A stretch of 39,999 bases of DNA from contig NZ_JAHOPH010000007.1 of NCBI RefSeq assembly GCF_019798055.1, positions 86,539 to 126,537 of the forward strand, written 5' to 3'. Source of the DNA: Salsipaludibacter albus (lineage in GTDB: Bacteria; Actinomycetota; Nitriliruptoria; Nitriliruptorales; Nitriliruptoraceae). Numbering within the stretch: the first letter of the stretch is position 1; each line of letters opens with the position of its first letter. Position numbers and translations under genes: made by a program. The notes beneath the pieces were generated by a model. It did not search any database and had not been told where the DNA came from. It saw nothing but the letters and a program-made list of their open reading frames with translations. Positions 1,394 through 15,173 of the stretch are shown piece after piece.

Positions 1394-4300
1394 CTACGAC
1401 AGATGAGGATGCAGGAATGTCACCGCAATGGGGAAGACGCGGACGTCCTGTGTGGCGTAGCGCTCGCGCACGCTGGTGATCTCGGTGCGGACCTTGTCTC
1501 GGATGGTCTCGTAGCGGGCCTGGAGCCGGTCGTAGTCGTGCTCGAGCTGCTCGGCTTCGTCGTCGGCGAACAGCGAGATCTGGGCGCTGTCGAGCTGGTT
1601 GCGTGTGCGGTCGAGAGCCTCTCGCATGGCGTCGGCGGCACGGTCGACGTCGGATTCGAGGCGGGCGAGCTCCTCCTCCATGCGCGTCTGGAGTGCCTTC
1701 TGCTTGATCTCGGCGAGGCGCTGGCCGCGTCGTTCGAGGTTCGAAACGAGGTCCTCGGCCACCTTGTCCCACTGGGCGTGCAGCTCGCGGTCAGCCTCGA
1801 CCGCGTCCGGCCGTCGGGCGGCCCAGAGCCCGTCGGCGTGGACGTCGGCGTCGAGCTGTGCCCACCGACCGTCGCGGAACCGGGCGGCACGGGCGACGAC
1901 CTGCTCGTGGAGGCGGTTGCCGTCCGCGCCGGTGATCAGCACGCGAGCATGGGCAACGACGGCGAGGTCGCCGATCCAGTCGTAGTCGCCCTCGACCGCG
2001 GCAGGGTCGTAGGCCCGGCTGGTGACCCGATGCAGCTGGTCCTGGGTGGTCGTCGTCCAGACCTGCGACCGCAGCAGCGCGGTCGCGTGGGCCACGAATG
2101 GATGGTTGAGGTGCGCGAGGATCGGTCCGGGTGCGGGCTCGGCCAGCCTGGCGTCGAAGGTGACGAACCGGCGGACTTTGCTGATCGGGTCCACGAGGTC
2201 CTTGAGGTTCTCGATCCACTCGGCGGACAGGCTTGGGACGCTGAACAGACCCGGCGTGGTCGGGTGCGGCTGCAAGGTCGGCTGGTGCGACAGGGCGAGG
2301 GCCACGTCGACCGTGTGCCGGACCTCGGCCGGGTCGGCGTCGAGCTCGGCACGGGTCGCGTCGAGCCGCGTCCGGACGTCGTCGAGCAGGGCTCGGAGTT
2401 GGCGTTCGGTGGCACGCAGTGCGGTCTTGGAACGGTGGGCCTCGACGTCGGCGTCGTAGCGGTCCAGGTCGATGGTCTCACCGGTGCGCAGGGCATCCTT
2501 CTGCGCGACCTCCAGCTGATCGAACAGCGGGTTGGCGCCGCCCAGGTCGGTCAGCACCGTCGAGAGCTTGTCGGCTACGCGCCGCTCGATCCGTGTGTCT
2601 CGACCGATGCTCGTCTCACCGAGACCGGTGAAGTGGTGGATGTCCGCGGTGTCGGACGTCTGCCCGTGCCGGTCGATGCGGCCGTTGCGCTGCTCCATCC
2701 GTGAGGGGTTCCACGGCACGTCGTAGTGGATGAGGTCGTGGCACTGCTGGTGGAGGTCGATGCCCTCCGACGCGGTATCCGTGCACAACAGGATGCGGAC
2801 GGTCGTGCCGGCGTTCGCGTCGTCGCCTGGCGGGTGGTTGAACAGCTCGGCGATGTGGACGCGGTCCTCGTCGCGCATGCCGCCGCGCAGCTCGCGGATG
2901 CGGGTCTTGTCGACTCCGCCCGCGACGAGCTTCTCGTACAGGTACTTGTGGGTGTCGAGGTACTCGGTGAAGACGATCAGCCGACCGTCGGTCCAGTTCT
3001 TGCCGTCGCGGCAGACGTCATCGATCAGCGCCCGTAGCGTGTCCAGGCGACCCGACTCAGAGCGGTCGTGGCGGGTGCCCCACTCGATGAGCCACTCGAG
3101 CTCAGCGAGCAGGTCGTCGTCGTAGACCAGCGCGTGCGCCGCCAACTCCACGGCGTCACGCGCGGCCGCTGCGGCGTCCTCGTCGGTCTCGTAGCCCTCC
3201 GCTGCCGCGTCGATTGCATCCAGCAGGGCACGGCTCGATGGCTGGGCGGCGGCGACCGGGCCGTTCTTGAGGTTGTGGCCCTTGGTGGTCAACGTCTCAT
3301 GGTGCTGGAGGATCGTGCCGGCGAACGCAGCCGGGGATGACAGCAGCCGCTTGCGGAGCGTCTCGCCGACGAACCGGACCGACGACTTCGCGGCCTTGCG
3401 GTTGACGTTGAGCTTCTCCAGCCGGTCGAGGTAGGCCAGCAGACGTTCGTAAGCGTCGGCCTCGTGGTCGTGGTAGCGAACCTCCTCGGCGTGCAGCTCG
3501 CGCCGTGGGAACGGGACCGTCTCGTCGACCTTGCGGATGTCGGCCTTCAGGCGGCGGACCATCACGCGGTCGATGTCCTCGCGGGACGGCTCGACGTTCT
3601 TGTCGAACCGGCGCGGGTCGAGCAGCTCCAGCAGCGCATGGAACGAGCTGCTGTGGCCGTTGTGCGGCGTGGCCGTGAGGAACAGGCGGTGCTCGAAGTA
3701 CGGGGCGACGTGCTTGATGATCTGGGTGCGGTCAGAGTCGATGGCGTAGTTCGCGCCTGCCGGCGCGGCGAGGTGCGCCTCGTCGAGGATGAGCAGGTCG
3801 AACGGACGCGGGAACTCGTCGGGGTCACCGATGAAGGCGTCGTCGAGCATCCGGCCGCGTTCAGGGCGCTTGATCCAGTCGATCGACGTGATCAGGTGCG
3901 GGTAGGCCTTCAGCGGGTTGAGGTGAACGTTGCGACGACGCACCTCGGTCACGAAGTCCGAGTTGCAGATGCGGAACTCGATGCCGAACCGCGAGCGCAT
4001 CTCCTTCTGCCACTTGTCCTGCAGGCCGGCCGGGCACACGATCAGGCAGTTGCGCATCCGGTGGCGAAGGTCCAGCTCCTGCGCGATGAGCCCGGCTTCA
4101 ATGGTCTTTCCGAGGCCGACGTCGTCGGCAATCAGCAGGGAGATGCGCGGCATGTCCAGCGCACGGACGAGTGGTTCAAGCTGGTAGTCGACGATGTCGA
4201 TGCCAGAGCGGTACGGCGACTCGAGGACGTCGGCATCCGCGTTGGTGATCGCGCCCCAGCGGACCGCGTTGAGGAACGCGTCCAGCGTGCGCGGGTCGTC

Positions 4301-4549
4301 GACGACCAGGTGCCCGTCGTCGTCGAGCGACGGCGCCGGCAGATGGACCGCGTCGAGCACCTTTGCGTCCGGCTCGACCTGCCAGAACAGCCTCGCCGTC
4401 TCCCCGTGCCGATCATCGGACACGCTCAGGAGCTTGACCAGATGTTGGACCCGCCCGTCCGTCACCTTCGTCGGGCTGATGTCGGTAGCGATCCACACAT
4501 CACCCCGGGCGCGGACGAGCGCGCCACGTGTCGGGACTTCCGTCGTCAA
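1394..4549 (-). CDS. drmD: DISARM-type SNF2 helicase DrmD-like
   Basis: A 1051-residue superfamily 2 SNF2-like helicase. Motif I is DDVGLGKT (142-149), motif II DEAH (256-259), motif III TATPHNG (293-299); the C-terminal RecA domain has FTEYLDT near 527, TDTASEGIDL (590-599) and QRNGRIDRHGQ (620-630). The lead-in SGIDIVDYQLEPLVRAL and the SIDWIKR block match what I recall of DrmD, the helicase of class 1 DISARM phage defence, which acts with a methyltransferase, DrmA, DrmB and DrmC. Beyond about 700 there is a long charged, helical region. The TTG start at 4549 has GAGGAG upstream. The neighbours needed to prove DISARM would lie left of the window. It is divergent from the UvrD-like gene across 108 bp. 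An orphan SNF2 helicase is the alternative. Confidence 0.8.
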   Translation of the reverse strand: MTTEVPTRGALVRARGDVWIATDISPTKVTDGRVQHLVKLLSVSDDRHGETARLFWQVEPDAKVLDAVHLPAPSLDDDGHLVVDDPRTLDAFLNAVRWGAITNADADVLESPYRSGIDIVDYQLEPLVRALDMPRISLLIADDVGLGKTIEAGLIAQELDLRHRMRNCLIVCPAGLQDKWQKEMRSRFGIEFRICNSDFVTEVRRRNVHLNPLKAYPHLITSIDWIKRPERGRMLDDAFIGDPDEFPRPFDLLILDEAHLAAPAGANYAIDSDRTQIIKHVAPYFEHRLFLTATPHNGHSSSFHALLELLDPRRFDKNVEPSREDIDRVMVRRLKADIRKVDETVPFPRRELHAEEVRYHDHEADAYERLLAYLDRLEKLNVNRKAAKSSVRFVGETLRKRLLSSPAAFAGTILQHHETLTTKGHNLKNGPVAAAQPSSRALLDAIDAAAEGYETDEDAAAAARDAVELAAHALVYDDDLLAELEWLIEWGTRHDRSESGRLDTLRALIDDVCRDGKNWTDGRLIVFTEYLDTHKYLYEKLVAGGVDKTRIRELRGGMRDEDRVHIAELFNHPPGDDANAGTTVRILLCTDTASEGIDLHQQCHDLIHYDVPWNPSRMEQRNGRIDRHGQTSDTADIHHFTGLGETSIGRDTRIERRVADKLSTVLTDLGGANPLFDQLEVAQKDALRTGETIDLDRYDADVEAHRSKTALRATERQLRALLDDVRTRLDATRAELDADPAEVRHTVDVALALSHQPTLQPHPTTPGLFSVPSLSAEWIENLKDLVDPISKVRRFVTFDARLAEPAPGPILAHLNHPFVAHATALLRSQVWTTTTQDQLHRVTSRAYDPAAVEGDYDWIGDLAVVAHARVLITGADGNRLHEQVVARAARFRDGRWAQLDADVHADGLWAARRPDAVEADRELHAQWDKVAEDLVSNLERRGQRLAEIKQKALQTRMEEELARLESDVDRAADAMREALDRTRNQLDSAQISLFADDEAEQLEHDYDRLQARYETIRDKVRTEITSVRERYATQDVRVFPIAVTFLHPHLS

Positions 4550-4657: not shown

Positions 4658-6826
4658 GTGTCCTATGCCTTGGTCTACACCAGCCGCTTCAAGGACTGCG
4701 TCGAGGCTTATCAAAAGGATGACGCCCGGTACCTCGCCGAACTGTGGCACGTCGTGCTGGAGGTCAGCAGGAAGCCGTTCGGCAACTCGAAGTTGCAAAC
4801 CCATCCCATGAAGGGGGTCGTCGGGCAGAAGCGCTACATCAGCTACGCCGGCGGCTCCAAGGGTCGGCGGCTGATCTGGGCCCGCGCCCACGAGACCATC
4901 ATCCTGCTGCTGTACGGAGAACACGACGTCGAACAGCAGGCCGAACGCCTGGTGATCGAGCCTGACACGGCGTCGGGAGCCATCACGATCCGGGAGGTCA
5001 GTGCGGAGGAAGGCCAGCCGGCGCCCCGGCCGTACACGAGCGAGCCTGATCCCGGCCAGCTCTTCATGGCCTGGACCGACGACGAGCTGGCCGAGCTGGG
5101 CTTCGGCGAGCAGGAGGTACCCCACCTGCGGCGGCTGGACACCGAAGCCGAGCTGCTCGAGCTCAACATGAGCGACCAGTCCTTCAGGCTGGCCTACGAC
5201 CTGCTGGCGCCACAGGAGCCGGAGGGGGAGGTGGCCGCACGCACGACGGACGAGGGCCGGCAGGCCGCGCAGTCCCGCACGGAGTCGTTGCGACAGGACG
5301 AGGTGGAACTGGAGAAGCGCGTCCACAGCCCGCTCGCCCGGGAGAACTTCCTGGCGATCGAAACCGACGAGCTGCAGGCGCTGCTGGCCGCCCCAATCGA
5401 GGACTGGATGGTGTTCCTCCATCCGGACCAGGCGCAGTTGGTCGAGCGCAGCTTCAGCGGCCCGGCGCGCGTACGTGGCGGCGCCGGCACCGGCAAGACG
5501 GTCGTGGGCCTGCATCGCGCACGGCACCTCGCCCGCGAGGGTGATGGTCCCGTCCTGTTCACGACCTATGTCCGCAACCTGCCGCCGGTCTTCGGTGAGC
5601 TCTTCACGCGCCTCGAACGCAGCAGCGAGGGTCGAGTCGACTTCCTCAACCTCCACAAGGTGGCACACCGGCTGGTCAGTGAGGTGGAGGGCTCTCCCTC
5701 CATTGACCTGCAGGGGACCAACGCGGTCTTCGCCAACGCGTGGCGACGAGCGACGCGAGGCGAGTCCGAGCTGGAAGCTCGAGGGTTGAGCCGCAACTAC
5801 GTCCGCCAAGAACTCGACTGGGTAATCAAGGGCCGGGGCCTGACGTCGCTGGACAACTACCTGGCACTCCCCCGCACCGGCCGCGGCACGCCGCTGGGAC
5901 CGGATGCGCGGCGAGAGGCATGGGACCTGTACGTGGACTACCAGGGCCAGTTGCAGCAGCTCGGGCTGATGGACTTCAACGACCTGTTGAACCGAGCCAT
6001 CGAACTGCTGCTCCTGGGGAGGATCGCGCCGCCGTATCGAGCCGTCATCGTGGACGAGGCACAGGACCTCACCGAGATGGGACTTCGGCTGACGCACCTG
6101 CTCGCAGGCCCGGATCGCGACAACAACCTGTTCATCCTTGGTGACGGACAGCAGGCCGTCTACCCGGGCGGCTTCAACCTGTCGAACATCGGGATCGACA
6201 TCATCGGCAGGTCGTCCGTGCTGCGGGTCAACTATCGCAACCCGGAGGAGGTTGATGCCTTCGCCTGGTCGCTCGTGTCGGGTTCGAGCTACGAAGACCT
6301 CGATGGGGAGCCCCAACCCGGTACGCGCGAGGAGACCACGCTGGTGCGCCAGGGCGGCGAGGTGGAAGCCACGGGATTCGACAGCCTCGACGAGCACGAC
6401 ATGACCCTGATCGCGCGGATCGACGAACTCGCCCGTCGGGGCGACACCGGCCCCGGGGACATCGCCGTGCTCGTCCCGACCAACGCCATGGTCACGGAGT
6501 ACGCATCACGGATCGAGGGACTCGGGCTGCGAACACAGAAGTTGCAGCAGTACGACGGTGTCACGAACGAGCTCGTGAAGGTGGGCACCTACCAGCGAGC
6601 GAAGGGCCTGGAGTTCAAGCGGGTCTTCGTCCCCCGCCTGGACGCCGATGGCTTGAACGATCACCCGTTCGAGGGTGAGGACGAGACCAGCCGCCACGAG
6701 CGCATGGAACTCATCCGCCGTCAGGTCTTCGTCGCCGTGACGCGTGCACGCGACGGTGTGTGGGCCGGATGGGTCAGTGAGCCCAGCGAGCTGCTGTGCG
6801 CGATCGACGAGATGCCACCGGAGTAG
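4658..6826 (+). CDS. UvrD/Rep-family helicase with N-terminal RelE-like domain
   Basis: A 722-residue fusion. Residues 1-about 100 resemble a RelE/ParE-type fold (LVYTSRFKD start, then basic strand KRYISYAGG and RRLIWAR), normally found in toxins or their inactive relatives. Residues about 250-722 are a superfamily 1 helicase core: GGAGTGKT (274-281), VIVDEAQD (463-470), LGDGQQAVYPGG (495-506), VNYRNPEE (524-531), TYQRAKGLEFK (644-654) and FVAVTRAR (691-698). The enzyme should translocate on DNA using ATP. The GTG at 4658 has GAAAGAGG six bases upstream and is preferred to the long upstream open frame, which is antisense to the DrmD-like gene. It is a single-gene unit next to a defence helicase. 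Whether the RelE-like part cleaves RNA, or serves as a docking domain, cannot be told. Confidence 0.85.
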   Translation: MSYALVYTSRFKDCVEAYQKDDARYLAELWHVVLEVSRKPFGNSKLQTHPMKGVVGQKRYISYAGGSKGRRLIWARAHETIILLLYGEHDVEQQAERLVIEPDTASGAITIREVSAEEGQPAPRPYTSEPDPGQLFMAWTDDELAELGFGEQEVPHLRRLDTEAELLELNMSDQSFRLAYDLLAPQEPEGEVAARTTDEGRQAAQSRTESLRQDEVELEKRVHSPLARENFLAIETDELQALLAAPIEDWMVFLHPDQAQLVERSFSGPARVRGGAGTGKTVVGLHRARHLAREGDGPVLFTTYVRNLPPVFGELFTRLERSSEGRVDFLNLHKVAHRLVSEVEGSPSIDLQGTNAVFANAWRRATRGESELEARGLSRNYVRQELDWVIKGRGLTSLDNYLALPRTGRGTPLGPDARREAWDLYVDYQGQLQQLGLMDFNDLLNRAIELLLLGRIAPPYRAVIVDEAQDLTEMGLRLTHLLAGPDRDNNLFILGDGQQAVYPGGFNLSNIGIDIIGRSSVLRVNYRNPEEVDAFAWSLVSGSSYEDLDGEPQPGTREETTLVRQGGEVEATGFDSLDEHDMTLIARIDELARRGDTGPGDIAVLVPTNAMVTEYASRIEGLGLRTQKLQQYDGVTNELVKVGTYQRAKGLEFKRVFVPRLDADGLNDHPFEGEDETSRHERMELIRRQVFVAVTRARDGVWAGWVSEPSELLCAIDEMPPE

Positions 6827-6880: not shown

Positions 6881-7327
6881 TCAGTGGTTTAGCACGGCAT
6901 TTCTGAGCAGGTCGAAATCGTCCGCTGAGATCTCGATTGGGGACGCACGGAAGTACGAACCCCATGACTCGGGCCTCCGCACCATCTCCAGCCGTTCGAC
7001 GAGTGGTCGAACATGTGGGCCGTGACGCTCGTCCATAAGCATCTCAGGCTCGTGTCCGACCGTCCAGGTGAAGTCTCGGCCGGCGATGACGAGCGCGTCG
7101 TCGACCTGTCGTGGGTCGCTGGTCACGCGAGTAACGCCCGCAAGGTGGGCCCGGTCCCGAGTCGGGTTGTGGAACGCCCCGCGAGTGACATACAGGATGG
7201 CGCGGTCACCTGGCTCCATCCGAGAGATTCGGCCGGCAGCATGTTCGGGGAAGGCCATCCGATCGTGTTCGAGCACCCAGCGGAGACCGTCGATCTCACC
7301 GAAGACCCAGACCCAGTGACGCATCAT
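6881..7327 (-). CDS. EVE-domain protein
   Basis: A 148-residue protein that appears to be a single EVE (PUA-like) domain: it opens with RHWVWVFGEID, has GDRAILYVTRG (40-50), GVTRVTSDP (64-72) and ends with FRASPIEIS. EVE domains bind modified bases in DNA or RNA and are common in restriction and defence loci. It is the last gene of a leftward operon: its ATG at 7327 overlaps the TGA of the preceding gene (ATGA), implying translational coupling. A second ATG follows at once (7324). The coupling to two unknown proteins is the only clue to its partner. Confidence 0.75.
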   Translation of the reverse strand: MMRHWVWVFGEIDGLRWVLEHDRMAFPEHAAGRISRMEPGDRAILYVTRGAFHNPTRDRAHLAGVTRVTSDPRQVDDALVIAGRDFTWTVGHEPEMLMDERHGPHVRPLVERLEMVRRPESWGSYFRASPIEISADDFDLLRNAVLNH

Positions 7328-8175
7328 GCCCCCAGCACATGCCAGCGATGCCGTCCACGGAACCAGCCCCCGGTCTCCTTGGACCGACGGTAGGTGCCGA
7401 GCCAACCGATGGGCTTGCAGACGACATCGACCCGAACCGAACGATCGTCCGGCGTCCGGTCGGGACTGACCTTCGTCAACCGCCGATACCAGCCTGCGTA
7501 CGCGTCGACGAGGAGCACGCGTTGGCGACTGTCGCCATCCGGCTTGAACTCGCGCTGCCTGCCGGTGGTCTCGCCTTCGAGCGGCGATTGGCAGTGGCGC
7601 GAGAGGTGCAGCCCGTCGGTCCCCCCGTGCCACTCGACGACCTCGTCTTCCGTTGGAACTGGTGGCGCGTCGAAACGCGTCCAGGGCCCCTCGTGGGCCA
7701 ACGCTGCGGCCCGCGCGTGAAGCGGGCCGCTGGAGGCGGCCCACCGAACGAACTCGGGCAGATCGCGCCCCCACCATGCCTCCACGACCTCGAGGATCGG
7801 GTCCTTGGTCGGGCGTCCCATGTCGATCCAACGCTGGAGCCCGAGGTCCGCTCTTGTCCATCCAAGCCCGAAATGGAGGAGGTGCAGGAGCGGTCCCCAG
7901 AACGCGCACTCTCGCTCTACCAGGTCCCCCGACCTCGGTGCCCGTGGCCGCGACGGGATCGCCAGACGGTAGGCAGCAGGCAACGAAGCGGCCTGCCACG
8001 CGAGGGGGAGGTAGCGCACCCAAGGGTCATCCTCGCCGAGCGCGGGCTCAGTGGTCACCCTGACCATGAGTTCCTCCATCCATTGGTCGCTCGGCCAGAC
8101 TAGGGATACGGGACCAGCGCCCCACGCGCCAGGGAGATCCTGGGCCGAGACAAGCCCAAGATCACTCTTAGGCAT
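7324..8175 (-). CDS. Uncharacterised protein, middle gene of EVE operon
   Basis: A 283-residue protein I do not recognise. It is tryptophan-rich (DQWMEELM, WVRYLPLAW, CAFWGPLLHLLHFGLGW) without predicted membrane helices of full length or a signal peptide. The C-terminal third is basic and polar (SRQRVLLVDAYAGWYRRL, then WLGTYRRSKETGGWFRGRH), which could contact nucleic acid, but no catalytic motif stands out. It follows the 455-residue gene by 62 bp and overlaps the EVE gene by four bases, so the three are probably one transcript. The ATG at 8175 has only a weak ribosome site (GGGAT). Confidence 0.6.
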   Translation of the reverse strand: MPKSDLGLVSAQDLPGAWGAGPVSLVWPSDQWMEELMVRVTTEPALGEDDPWVRYLPLAWQAASLPAAYRLAIPSRPRAPRSGDLVERECAFWGPLLHLLHFGLGWTRADLGLQRWIDMGRPTKDPILEVVEAWWGRDLPEFVRWAASSGPLHARAAALAHEGPWTRFDAPPVPTEDEVVEWHGGTDGLHLSRHCQSPLEGETTGRQREFKPDGDSRQRVLLVDAYAGWYRRLTKVSPDRTPDDRSVRVDVVCKPIGWLGTYRRSKETGGWFRGRHRWHVLGA

Positions 8176-8237
8176 TTCATCCCAGCCACGGCGGGAACCG
8201 GTGGCTCAGCGTCGCGGCCGACACCCAACGGGGACTG

Positions 8238-9605
8238 TCACACGAGCTGACGGATCCGATCCAGGAGCGCATCGACGTAGGTCGTGGCGTCCAGGTCCGC
8301 GTGGCCGAGCGCATCCCGCAACAGCCCGACATCGCGTGGCAGGCCCTTGCCGTCCTCCCAGTTCCGCTGGATCCGGTCGGCGATGGGCGCGGCATCTGCG
8401 CCGAAAGCCGCCTGGGTGTCGAAGGCCCGAACGAAGCCGGGGAGGCGCTCGTCACGCGAGGATGTCGGCAGCGTCTCGGACGTCACGCCCGGTGGAGGTT
8501 CACCCGGGCCCAGGTGTCCACTCCAGGTCGGCCCAATGACCGGCTCCTCGCCCCACAGGAGCGCGGCGGCCGGCCAGCTCATCGGGTGCCAGTCGTTCTC
8601 TTCGGCGAAGTCTCGCCACGACACCGTGGACGCAGTGTCGGCCTTCGGCAGGGACCAGTACGAGATGCTTCCGTTGTACTGCCAGTATCCGGTCGCCGGG
8701 CCAGGCACGAACTGCAGTTCGTTTCGGCGCCACAGGTTCCCGAGCATCCTCGGCAGGTACCCGGACAGGGTGAACTCCAAGGGATGGTCGACAGCGATGT
8801 GGCCGAACCGCCGGTACAGGAAGAGATAGTCGTCCACGTTGGCGTAGGCGAACGCGTGCTCGACGATCCCGTACTCGATGCAGGGTCCAGCTCTCCGGGT
8901 CGCCTCCTCGACGGCATCGACCAGCTTGTCGTAGAGCTGCAGTTCGCCGACGAGTGTTCCCTCTCCGTCGCCCCCGGAGAAGACCGTGCCACTCCGGGAC
9001 CCGCCCGCCGGTTCAAGGTCCCACGGGAGCGCGGCATCGAATTCGAGGTCCTGCAGCACGGGCCGCACACGAGTTGCCGCCACGGCAACGATCGCAGCCC
9101 CCAACTTGTCGGCCGGAAAGGACGCACAGGCCTGCGGAGCATGGATAGGACAACTCGTCGACAGCTCGGCACCCGACGAAGCCAGCCAGTCGCGAACCGG
9201 GCCACCGGCGTAGTACCGGACGGCCGCCCCGCCGACGGGAGCCGCCACCCAGGAACTCGAACGCTGGGTGGGCAGGGTCAGGAGTCCGTGAGCATCGTCG
9301 TCGACACGGAACGTCAGTGGAAGCGAGGCCGGATCATCCTCTCCGCCTGGAGCATCGAGCCACCGCGCAGTGATCGCGTCTGACCCGGTGACGACCCCGA
9401 CGCTGACTGGGCGGTCACCCACGAGGACCTCGAAAGCCAACGCATCCTCGGCGCGGGTAACTGAACGGATCGTCACCGGACCGAACCGACGTGCCACCGC
9501 GTCGTCCCCCCTGTTGCCGTCACCCTGTCGTGGTGAACGTAGCCATGCTCCGCAACCATCACTCTGGAACCACGTGGGTCCTGCGGGCTCGACCTCCCAT
9601 GTCAC
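8238..9605 (-). CDS. Uncharacterised 455-residue protein, first gene of EVE operon
   Basis: A soluble-looking protein of unknown family. The middle has an aromatic, well-structured stretch (EYGIVEHAFAYANVDDYLFLYRRF, seen here in part as VDDYLFLYRRF; then YLPRMLGNLWRRNELQF and TGYWQYNGSISYW), and the C-terminus ends in a helix DALLDRIRQLV. No nucleotide-binding or nuclease motif is evident. The GTG at 9605 is the first start with a GAGG nearby, although the spacing is short. It begins the leftward operon with the 283-residue protein and the EVE protein and is divergent, only 44 bp apart, from the EEP pair, so the two units may be controlled together. Confidence 0.6.
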   Translation of the reverse strand: MTWEVEPAGPTWFQSDGCGAWLRSPRQGDGNRGDDAVARRFGPVTIRSVTRAEDALAFEVLVGDRPVSVGVVTGSDAITARWLDAPGGEDDPASLPLTFRVDDDAHGLLTLPTQRSSSWVAAPVGGAAVRYYAGGPVRDWLASSGAELSTSCPIHAPQACASFPADKLGAAIVAVAATRVRPVLQDLEFDAALPWDLEPAGGSRSGTVFSGGDGEGTLVGELQLYDKLVDAVEEATRRAGPCIEYGIVEHAFAYANVDDYLFLYRRFGHIAVDHPLEFTLSGYLPRMLGNLWRRNELQFVPGPATGYWQYNGSISYWSLPKADTASTVSWRDFAEENDWHPMSWPAAALLWGEEPVIGPTWSGHLGPGEPPPGVTSETLPTSSRDERLPGFVRAFDTQAAFGADAAPIADRIQRNWEDGKGLPRDVGLLRDALGHADLDATTYVDALLDRIRQLV

Positions 9606-9615
9606 GGGCCTCTAC

Positions 9616-9621
9616 TACTGT
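9616..9621 (+). promoter_or_regulatory. Candidate -10 box for the EEP pair
   Basis: TACTGT in the 44-bp divergent spacer, followed 19 bases later by GGAGG (9641-9645) and the TTG start at 9650. The spacer is so short that the promoter of the leftward operon must overlap it or lie inside this gene pair. Confidence 0.35.
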
Positions 9622-9649
9622 CCCGTGGCGCGCACAGACAGGAGGAACC

Positions 9650-10576
9650 TTGGGGACTGATGGTCTCCGCATGTGCGGGCTCAACCTTCGGGCCTACCCG
9701 AACCCGGACAGCCAGCAGATCCATCGAATGGCCCGCCTGGTGGCCGCCCGGGAACCCGACGTCGTGCTGCTGCAGGAATGCAAGCGGGGTTGGCTGGAAC
9801 CCGTCTGCGAACCGGCCGGGCTCGACGGCGTCCATGCGCATCACGTCGCGCCGGACACGCCACGGTCGGCCTATCCGCCGGACGGGACCGCCATCGCCGT
9901 CCGAGCACCGCTGCGCATCGAGCGCGCCTGGCGGATCCCACCAGAGGACTTCCTGCCCAAGACCGTGCAGGAGCAGCTGTTCGAAGAGCCGCCGCACGAC
10001 CTCGAACCGTTGCCCGACCGGCTCGCCCAGCGCTACTCCGGGCGGTCACTGCTCGCCGAGATCCATGGCGGGAGCCAGCCGTTCGTGGCCGGGTCGTTCC
10101 ATGCCACGCCCGGCACCAGCACGGTCGGCGGGGCTCGCGTGCACGAGCGCAAGCCGTTCTTCCACGGCGCCGTGGCGCTGCACCTCGCCCAGCTCGACCA
10201 ACCGTTCGTGTTCGCCATCGACGCGAACGAGCCCCTGACCGAGTCGGCGGACTCCGTCGGCTTCCACTGGGCCGACGGTCGCAGCGGTGTCGAGAAGTTC
10301 CGCGCGCTGCTCGGCCTCGAGCCGATCCACCGTGGCCGTGACCTCTTCCGGGAATGGCATCACGGCTCGGGCCTGGTCGCAGCCTCGCCGGACCTGCTCG
10401 TGCCGACCTACGCCCCCGGGCCCGACTTCCAGCGCCGCTTCGACTCGATATGGGCGACGCCGGACTTCACCGTGGACGACTTCGTCACCGAGTTGGCGGA
10501 CGTCGTGGCTGCCGGAGGCGACCACGCGATGCTCGTGGCCGACCTCCGACTCCGGCCCGTCGGGGCAGCGGCATGA
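9650..10576 (+). CDS. EEP-fold phosphatase/nuclease family protein, first of pair
   Basis: A 308-residue member of the endonuclease/exonuclease/phosphatase fold. Landmarks in order are GLNLRAYPN near the N-terminus (metal/phosphate Asn), VLLQECKRGW (metal-binding Glu), AIDANEP (Asp and Asn), RFDSIWATPDF and GGDHAMLVADLRL (catalytic Asp-His). The family cuts phosphodiesters or phosphomonoesters with Mg2+; the substrate is unknown. The TTG at 9650 is chosen because AGGAGG sits four bases upstream; an ATG at 9671 is an alternative. The stop overlaps the next ATG (ATGA). It is unusual to find two different EEP enzymes coupled this way. Confidence 0.75.
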   Translation: MGTDGLRMCGLNLRAYPNPDSQQIHRMARLVAAREPDVVLLQECKRGWLEPVCEPAGLDGVHAHHVAPDTPRSAYPPDGTAIAVRAPLRIERAWRIPPEDFLPKTVQEQLFEEPPHDLEPLPDRLAQRYSGRSLLAEIHGGSQPFVAGSFHATPGTSTVGGARVHERKPFFHGAVALHLAQLDQPFVFAIDANEPLTESADSVGFHWADGRSGVEKFRALLGLEPIHRGRDLFREWHHGSGLVAASPDLLVPTYAPGPDFQRRFDSIWATPDFTVDDFVTELADVVAAGGDHAMLVADLRLRPVGAAA

Positions 10577-11427
10577 CCACCCCGCACCGGTCCCGTGGCG
10601 TGTCGCTGGTGAGCTGGAACGTCAACGGTGGCCCGTGGCGCACCCACGTCGAGGACCTCGAAGTCGACGTGGCCCTCCTCCAGGAAGTCGTGCGCCCATC
10701 CCTGTCGGAAGCCGGACTCGAGGTTGTCCCGAGCCCCGACACGGCGTCATGGCACACCACCGGGTGGAAGACTCGCCCCTTCCGGACCGCGATCGTCCGC
10801 CTGTCGGACCGCGTGTCCCTGCACCCGCGCCCGACCGGTGACCTGTCCGATCCCGACCGCAGCCTCCTGTCGGTGAGTCGGGCCGGCACCCTCACCGCCG
10901 CGGACGTGGTCGTGGACGGTGCCGTGTTGTTCACCGCGGTGTCGTGGTACGCGACCTGGGAACACCCACCGGGCAGCGGCGAACTCCTCGGTGCGGACAC
11001 GTCGGCGCATCGGCTGCTGTCGGACCTCGGCGGGCTGGTCAACAGCTCTCGCGGTCACCGCATCGTCGCGGCCGGCGACCTCAACCTGCTTTACGGGTAC
11101 GGGGACTATGGCAACCCCTACTGGGCCCGGCGCTACGCCACGGTGTTCGACCGTGCCGACGCGATGGGCCTGGTGATGGTCGGGCCGCAACATCCGCACG
11201 GGCGGCCGGCCGATCCATGGCCCGAGGAACTGCCGCCGGACAGCCGCAACGTGCCGACCTACCACACCGCCGCGCAGGGTCCTGCCGGCGCGACACGGCA
11301 GCTCGACTTCGTGTTCGCCTCCAGGGCTATCGCCGACCGGGTGCACGTCCGAGCCCTGAACGAACCCGACGAGTGGGGACCAAGCGACCACTGCCGAATC
11401 CGCATCGACGTCGACCTCCCGACGTGA
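10573..11427 (+). CDS. EEP-fold phosphatase/nuclease family protein, second of pair
   Basis: A 284-residue EEP protein. It has LVSWNVNGG (about 12-20), VALLQEVVRP (metal Glu), VAAGDLNLLYG (catalytic Asp/Asn), RQLDFVFAS and EWGPSDHCRI (catalytic Asp-His), so the full catalytic set is present. Its ATG at 10573 lies within the stop of the first EEP gene, giving translational coupling and near-equal synthesis, which suggests a heterodimer or sequential action. The two proteins share the fold but little sequence, so they are old paralogues or of separate origin, not a recent duplication. A 7-bp stem-loop follows the gene. Confidence 0.8.
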   Translation: MTTPHRSRGVSLVSWNVNGGPWRTHVEDLEVDVALLQEVVRPSLSEAGLEVVPSPDTASWHTTGWKTRPFRTAIVRLSDRVSLHPRPTGDLSDPDRSLLSVSRAGTLTAADVVVDGAVLFTAVSWYATWEHPPGSGELLGADTSAHRLLSDLGGLVNSSRGHRIVAAGDLNLLYGYGDYGNPYWARRYATVFDRADAMGLVMVGPQHPHGRPADPWPEELPPDSRNVPTYHTAAQGPAGATRQLDFVFASRAIADRVHVRALNEPDEWGPSDHCRIRIDVDLPT

Positions 11428-13561: not shown

Positions 13562-14293
13562 GTGAAGCGTCTGAGCCGACCAAAGGGCAATCCGCAGATC
13601 CGACGCCAACTACGCGGCGAGATCCGTGCGCTGGTGCGCAGCAACTGGATGATCGTCGCGGGACTCGTCGTCCTGTGGCTTGGCAGTCTGGCTGTCGTCA
13701 CCGCGATGTTCGTCGTGACCGGCGGTTGGGACTTCCGGGCTGGCCTGTTCATTGGGGTGTGGATCGCTGTCGCCGTGTGGTGGCTGCACTACTTCTTGGC
13801 CTGGACCGGGTTCCGGCATCGCCAGATGGGGCTGTCGGCCGAAGCCGAGACGGGCCGGATCCTCGGCCGGCTCGGCAACGACTGGCATGTCGTCGCGAAC
13901 CTGTTGATCGACGATCGCTACGACATCGACCACGTGGTGATCGGCAGCGACCGGGTGTATGCCTGCGAGACCAAGTGGACGTCGGTGGAACCGGACATCG
14001 ACCGCTGGATGTCGCGGGTTGCGCGCGGGCGGGCGGATGGACTTCAGCGTGTCCTGGCCAACCAAGGCGTCGACGTCGAGGTGGTACCAGTCCTGGTCTT
14101 GTGGGGGCGCGAGACTGCCCGACTCGCTCCCGACGTCCAGATCGATGGCCGTCGGGTTCGCATCGTCGCCGGCACGGAGTGGCGGACCTGGCTGCCGAAG
14201 CTCAGCGCGTCAGGGGGCGGCCACGAGCCGCGCCAGGACGTCATCGATGCCATCGACAAACTCCGCATGGCTTCGGCACTTCCGGCCGACTGA
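13562..14293 (+). CDS. Membrane-anchored NERD nuclease-related protein
   Basis: A 243-residue protein with two N-terminal membrane helices (about 29-52 and 61-84) and a cytoplasmic NERD domain, a PD-(D/E)XK-like fold. The NERD signature reads YDIDHVVIGSD (120-130) followed by VYACETKWT (132-140), giving the acidic/lysine set D121 or D123, E136 and K138. NERD proteins are thought to process nucleic acid, but the substrate is unknown. The GTG at 13562 has GGGGA upstream. It is followed after 43 bp by the winged-helix/PD-(D/E)XK gene, and both carry related nuclease cores. Confidence 0.75.
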   Translation: MKRLSRPKGNPQIRRQLRGEIRALVRSNWMIVAGLVVLWLGSLAVVTAMFVVTGGWDFRAGLFIGVWIAVAVWWLHYFLAWTGFRHRQMGLSAEAETGRILGRLGNDWHVVANLLIDDRYDIDHVVIGSDRVYACETKWTSVEPDIDRWMSRVARGRADGLQRVLANQGVDVEVVPVLVLWGRETARLAPDVQIDGRRVRIVAGTEWRTWLPKLSASGGGHEPRQDVIDAIDKLRMASALPAD

Positions 14294-14301
14294 CGGGCCC
14301 T

Positions 14302-14307
14302 CTATGG
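14302..14307 (+). promoter_or_regulatory. Candidate -10 box for wHTH/PD-(D/E)XK gene
   Basis: TATGGT begins nine bases after the NERD stop; about 15 bases later GGGGAAGG forms a ribosome site for the GTG at 14337. This supports starting the protein at 14337, not at the ATG inside the box (14304). Confidence 0.35.
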
Positions 14308-14336
14308 TGAGTTTCGGTCGGGGAAGGATTCGAATC

Positions 14337-15173
14337 GTGGGGGCTCGCGAAGACCTGCTCGATGCCGCGAGGGCGCTGACCGAACGTGGACGATCACCGT
14401 TCTCACCCAGCGACTTGATTCGCGAGGCTCGCGCCCAGGGCAGTGCCTACAAGTCCTCGACGCTCCGAACACACATCGTCGGCTATATGCGCGAGGGGGC
14501 GAAGAATCACTGGGGCACCAAGTACGAGGACTTCCGACGCGTCGGTAGTGGTCGATACGTCCTGACCGAGCAGGCCGGCCGGCCTGACAGCCGCACGGAC
14601 CCCGAGCCGACTCAGGACGGGCCACCCAACGCGGCCATGGCCACAAGGGCCGATGAGCCAGTCACCGATCACCGGGCCGAGTGGTCCTGGGAGGGCAACG
14701 TCCAGTCCTCGGTCGTCGCACACCTGTCGGCTGAGCAGTGGAAGATCCTGCGAGTGGCGGACACGCACTCCCGTGAACACGGGATCGACGTCCAGGCCAA
14801 GCGCCGTCGCACGCAGCTGTCGGTCGAGGTCAAGGGCTACCCGTCTTCGGTCTATGCCCGAGGACCGAAGGCCGGCCAGCCCAAAGTGCACAACCTGGCT
14901 TCCCAAGCACGTGCCTACTTCAGCGACGCACTCCTGACCGGGTTGGTCATGCGCGGTGACGACTCGAACGCCAGGGTCGTCCTCGCCTTCCCGCGCTTCA
15001 CCACCTACGAGAACCTCGCTGCGCGGACGATCGCACCCCTCGCCTCCGCTGACATCGAGGTCTGGTTCGTCGACGAGGGCGGGACCGTGACGCCTTTCGA
15101 CGTGGGTGCGGGCCCGGCAGGCGGCGATGCCCCCGTCCCGCCACCGGCTCCAGACCTCACCACCGACGCCTGA
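14337..15173 (+). CDS. Winged-helix protein with PD-(D/E)XK nuclease-like domain
   Basis: A 278-residue two-domain protein. Residues 1-80 look like a winged-helix domain (DLLDAARALTERGRSPFSP, then SDLIREARAQG and TLRTHIVGYM) of a type often found with restriction enzymes. After a Pro-rich linker, residues about 115-260 form a restriction-endonuclease-like core: GID151, then LSVEVKG with E164 and K166, the PD-(D/E)XK metal and catalytic residues. The likely role is sequence- or structure-dependent DNA cleavage; methylation sensitivity is possible given nearby EVE proteins. The C-terminal tail is Pro/Ala-rich and probably disordered. The start was chosen by GGGGAAGG and the -10 box upstream. 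Confidence 0.7.
   Translation: MGAREDLLDAARALTERGRSPFSPSDLIREARAQGSAYKSSTLRTHIVGYMREGAKNHWGTKYEDFRRVGSGRYVLTEQAGRPDSRTDPEPTQDGPPNAAMATRADEPVTDHRAEWSWEGNVQSSVVAHLSAEQWKILRVADTHSREHGIDVQAKRRRTQLSVEVKGYPSSVYARGPKAGQPKVHNLASQARAYFSDALLTGLVMRGDDSNARVVLAFPRFTTYENLAARTIAPLASADIEVWFVDEGGTVTPFDVGAGPAGGDAPVPPPAPDLTTDA

Follow-up and report, generated by a model that had tools for sequence, protein, structure and literature searches.

Do five adjoining genes, encoding an EVE-domain protein, two proteins of 283 and 455 amino acids (p283 and p455) and two dissimilar EEP-fold enzymes (EEP1 and EEP2), make up one new anti-phage system? The sequence-only reading of this locus had proposed that they do, with the EVE protein recognizing modified nucleic acid and the EEP enzymes acting on it or on a nucleotide signal. 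We consider it probable instead that the locus, which lies in a 39,999-nucleotide stretch of DNA (the window) on a 145,779-bp contig of a genome of the class of Euzebya (Nitriliruptoria), is a mosaic anti-phage island anchored by DISARM and carrying two separate accessory units, a helicase-linked p455-p283-EVE unit and an independent EEP1-EEP2 nuclease pair.

The block and its surroundings

The sequence and its open reading frames divide the block into two transcription units. The leftward unit runs from p455 (8238-9605, minus strand, GTG start at 9605) through p283 (7324-8175, minus strand) to the EVE gene (6881-7327, minus strand), and the rightward unit comprises EEP1 (9650-10576, plus strand), whose TTG start at 9650 lies 4 nt behind a Shine-Dalgarno sequence, AGGAGG (9640-9645), and EEP2 (10573-11427, plus strand). 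An ATGA overlap joins p283 to the EVE gene and another joins EEP1 to EEP2. Because each of the five reading frames has relatives elsewhere or a domain match, they are not chance ORFs. This anatomy is the one that the sequence-only reading had described, and its account of a coupled but dissimilar EEP pair also holds, as EEP1 and EEP2 share no BLASTP similarity and no convincing profile similarity. The two proteins that it had called unknown, p283 and p455, indeed match nothing in Pfam, NCBIfam, PADLOC or PHROGs. Of the "44-bp promoter spacer" claimed between the start codons of p455 and EEP1 (9606-9649), the 44 bp stand and the promoter is at most putative: a scan limited to promoters of the sigma-70 type found none there.

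The EVE gene product is a stand-alone EVE-domain protein of 148 aa. Its Pfam match (E=1.3e-4, 22.4 bits) falls just below the cut-off of 23, it matches UPF0310-type models of NCBIfam, and the solved protein PH1033 (PDB) matches it over positions 4-144 (E=1.8e-5); the PH1033 and Pfam matches place it in the EVE superfamily, with its EVE/PUA-like fold and UPF0310 homology. It is a predicted modified-base binder and may read such a base in this setting.

Immediately to the left of the block lies a complete class 1 DISARM operon (drmD, drmMI, drmA, drmB, drmC), which spans L002:2045-16443, to the left of the window, and window:1394-4549. The drmD gene (1394-4549, minus strand) encodes a SNF2/BrxHII-like helicase (PADLOC DrmD, 1026 bits), and the genes outside the window score 1266 (DrmMI), 937 (DrmA), 247 (DrmB) and 161 bits (DrmC). 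A 2,115-bp part of drmMI occurs twice, the copies being 99.6% identical, and a third copy of 131 bp sits at the left edge of the window, by a 96-N assembly gap; the region was either duplicated in tandem recently or misassembled.

Between DISARM and the block is the gene of an ArmD-like helicase of the UvrD/GajB type (4658-6826, start approximate, plus strand), which matches the UvrD-helicase family of Pfam and GajB models and which here adjoins DISARM, not being inside an ARMADA II operon. The protein is 31.8% identical to the product of a UvrD gene that follows an N-6 methylase and a DEAD/DEAH helicase in a plasmid operon of Haematobacter (L052), an operon with the gene content of ARMADA II, and 27% identical over 676 positions to the ArmD of a second ARMADA II-type locus (L040). 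By eye its N-terminus is RelE-like; Pfam reports no such domain. Its nearest relatives, from Embleya (41%), occur singly, with no match to DISARM, ARMADA or p283. To the right of the block the island continues on the plus strand (window:11547-15173) with proteins of 469 and 163 aa for which no library match passes the cut-off. Also encoded there are a NERD-domain protein (13562-14293) and a DUF7669 protein (13959-15173) whose C-terminal half is nuclease-like by eye. The window also holds a 599-bp direct repeat at 96.3% identity (window:17441-18039 and window:39400-39998). With a complete DISARM operon next door, and with defence genes beside the relatives of EEP1, EEP2 and p283 described below, the earlier proposal that the block is defence-related is supported; its role in phage defence, its substrates and its complexes are inferred.

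p283 and its helicase neighbours

The one lead worth following from this locus, and the new part of the finding, is the p283 family. Five relatives were found (L016, L039, L040, L045 and L046), two of which (L039 and L040) match p283 over its full length at about 40%, and a conserved C-terminal motif, GWLGxYRxSRxTGxWFRGRHRxHxLG, is kept across distant genomes. All five lie beside defence-type genes and four of them beside helicases, a raw count that we take as a strong lead and not as a statistic. At L040 the p283 relative starts 3 nt after the stop codon of ArmD, in an operon of DrmD/BrxHII-like, PglX-like, YprA/DruE-like and UvrD (ArmD) genes, which is the content of ARMADA II. At L039 the relative is near Druantia II (DruF2, DruE2), a PADLOC PDC-S48 gene and an HNH gene; at L016 it is near a PDC-S37/Hhe/MkoA-like helicase, at L045 47 bp separate it from a divergent ORF that matches MkoA-like helicases, and at L046 it is near a Type ISP R-M system and GmrSD. 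The L046 protein (L046:7728-9929, minus strand, 733 aa) is itself a fusion in which a p283-like domain is joined by a TY-Chap3 domain and a C-terminal stretch of no assigned family; a uracil-glycosylase-like domain seen in it by eye was dropped, as neither Pfam nor the PDB supported it. No clear p283 relative was found in 65 other genomes of the class, and none in plasmids (tblastn, also with two p283 relatives as queries), in phages or, with the C-terminus or the full length, in viral contigs. p283 has no recognized fold, and its single-sequence AlphaFold model, with a pLDDT of 34, was set aside.

These neighbours suggest that p283 would be a helicase-associated accessory protein working with helicase-nuclease machines of SF1/SF2, such as the ArmD-like helicase, DISARM, ARMADA and Druantia. 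In this genome it would be co-expressed with the small EVE reader, which may help p283 to tell modified or foreign DNA; a possible part for p455 is that of a partner that binds DNA or regulates. A bolder version, which we put forward tentatively and consider possible but not probable, is that p283 founds a family of accessory or adaptor proteins common to helicase-nuclease defence machines (ARMADA II, DISARM with an ArmD-like helicase, Druantia II and MkoA/Hhe-like helicases), paired here with an EVE reader that would steer the helicase to modified phage DNA. With five relatives whose neighbours differ, the helicase link could be the ordinary clustering of defence islands.

A narrower alternative would make p455-p283-EVE a specific accessory operon of DISARM or ARMADA, a fixed partner of the ArmD-like helicase, and the EEP pair unrelated cargo. 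p283 does adjoin an ArmD-type helicase in two distant genomes, that of the window and that of L040. A fixed partnership is nevertheless unlikely, as the other four p283 loci (L016, L039, L045 and L046) have no convincing ArmD match, the Haematobacter operon with ARMADA II content is without p283, and in the window p283 and the helicase are on opposite strands. A 282-aa hypothetical gene in the Haematobacter operon was considered as a p283 relative and rejected, having no tblastn match to p283.

If helicase-based defences do share p283 as a portable partner, islands with ARMADA, DISARM and Druantia would be linked through a protein that lies outside all of the libraries searched, and p283 would be a small, testable factor in the choice of DNA by such helicases. 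If they do not, the locus is a useful negative, one in which a tight divergent layout and matching enzyme themes do not make a system.

The EEP pair, p455 and co-occurrence

Both EEP proteins score above the gathering cut-off of 24.5 for PF03372 (Exo_endo_phos; EEP1 33.3 bits, EEP2 34.8 bits) and carry the catalytic N, E, DxN and DH residues, which places them in the EEP superfamily. In EEP1, an EEP-fold phosphodiesterase/phosphatase, the catalytic residues are N12, E43, H151, D191/N193 and D291/H292, invariant with the relative at L015, and in EEP2 they are N16, E38, Y126, D169/N171 and D272/H273, invariant with the relative at L025. Histidine versus tyrosine, at a position matched here by eye, separates DNase I-like from ExoIII/APE-like members of the superfamily. 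EEP1 has the DNase I-type histidine (SFHATPG), and in EEP2, which also gives weak ExoIII matches, the ExoIII/APE-like tyrosine replaces it (SWYATW) with the GDLN and PSDH motifs intact; neither has a close solved relative. EEP1 would be expected to nick or degrade nucleic acid in the manner of DNase I, and EEP2 to act like an AP endonuclease. The two would be metal-dependent phosphodiesterases whose work, most likely carried out apart from p455-p283-EVE, is the nicking or trimming of foreign or processed DNA. No signal synthetase turned up among the scanned proteins, which makes a role in nucleotide signalling less likely.

EEP1 has one clear relative among 396 genomes of the phylum (L015, 52%, all motif residues kept) and no clear one in 65 other genomes of the class. 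The L015 relative adjoins a Type I R-M system and a UDG-family gene, and no EEP2, EVE, p283 or p455 was found in the 19.5 kb of sequence that make up this locus. There it belongs to a run (L015:9216-11298, minus strand) with the UDG-superfamily gene and an unknown 232-aa protein that is PD-(D/E)XK-like by eye, possibly a pairing of base excision with an AP nuclease. EEP2 likewise has one close relative among the sampled genomes (L025 of genome G049, 55%), which adjoins an AbiJ-NTD4/PDC-S32 gene, and no EEP1, p283 or p455 was found in that genome. A scan of genome contigs with an EEP1 alignment returned nothing, as did searches of plasmids (tblastn) and viral contigs with both proteins.

In p455, residues ~205-350 form a conserved domain whose complete relatives are stand-alone proteins of ~200 aa. 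Relatives of this domain occur in Euzebya and in four further genomes (G047, G001, G094 and G277), in reading frames that lack the other parts of p455; for the N-terminal 200 and C-terminal 100 residues no relatives were found. The plasmid search gave one match, in Euzebya, and neither a scan of genome contigs with p455 nor a scan of viral contigs with its domain gave any. Its single-sequence AlphaFold model (pLDDT 36) was likewise set aside. For one stand-alone p455-type protein, with an N-terminal zinc ribbon by eye (L033:8328-9743, minus strand), the gene immediately upstream matches PADLOC PDC-S48 weakly (E=3e-4), and an unrelated EEP gene is about 3 kb off.

The sequence-only reading had named the families occurring mostly apart as what would speak against one system, and apart is how we found them. 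In about 1,950 genome look-ups together with plasmids, phages and viral contigs, a search whose yield of relatives is small since the families are rare, no relative locus held two of the families p455, p283, EVE, EEP1 and EEP2; EEP1, EEP2, p283 and the p455 domain were separate in every relative found. At all five p283 loci, tblastn found no p455, EEP1, EEP2 or EVE neighbour. A single five-gene system, in which EVE would mark modified nucleic acid, p283 and p455 would activate and the EEP pair would destroy DNA or a nucleotide signal, has in its favour the tight divergent layout with its 44-bp spacer and coupled genes, and an EEP gene at L046, though this belongs to a different EEP subfamily, has no tblastn match to EEP1 or EEP2 and is transcribed away from the p283 relative. 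Given the separate families, and with no signal synthetase among the proteins scanned, interpretation as one coherent five-gene system is not supported, and we hold it to be very unlikely. That the block is random island debris, recently acquired orphan genes with neither a joint nor a defence function, would fit the rare and patchy families (the class genomes lacking clear relatives of p283 and EEP1, and the one close relative of EEP2) and is highly improbable in view of the intact reading frames, the ATGA coupling, catalytic motifs kept at 52-56% identity to relatives and a p283 motif kept in distant genomes.

Comparison with known systems

Two units in a DISARM-anchored island, the reading we favour, resemble several described systems in part. 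DISARM class 1 (drmD-drmMI-drmA-drmB-drmC) is itself present in full as the left-hand neighbour of the block, but none of EVE, p283, p455, EEP1 and EEP2 is a DISARM core gene. ARMADA type II (ArmA-D) has been described (PMC12458937) as a strict series in which a BrxHII-like helicase, a PglX-like methylase and a YprA helicase with a C-terminal nuclease are followed by a UvrD helicase that is GajB-like and bears a RelE-like N-terminal region. The window shares with it the ArmD-like helicase, and at L040 a p283 relative lies 3 nt behind ArmD. Unlike ARMADA II as so described, the window has only the ArmD-like gene, beside DISARM, which takes the place of the ArmC/YprA-Vsr gene, none of which was recognized in the window; in the consulted parts of that description p283 is not mentioned (PMC12458937).

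As in EVE-containing Type IV or modification-dependent restriction (PMC7641849, PMC7897488), an EVE reader stands here within a defence setting. Unlike the EVE-fused nucleases of that kind, with their HNH, PD-(D/E)XK or McrB-type effectors, the 148-aa protein has the EVE fold only and is fused to no HNH, McrB or other nuclease; stand-alone EVE proteins adjoining R-M or SNF2-helicase systems have already been described (PMC7641849). The EEP enzymes, finally, share with the ExoIII/AP endonuclease and DNase I branches of their superfamily the Exo_endo_phos domain and the intact N, E, DxN and (S/G)DH motifs, and differ from them in that two dissimilar EEP proteins are here coupled in one operon.
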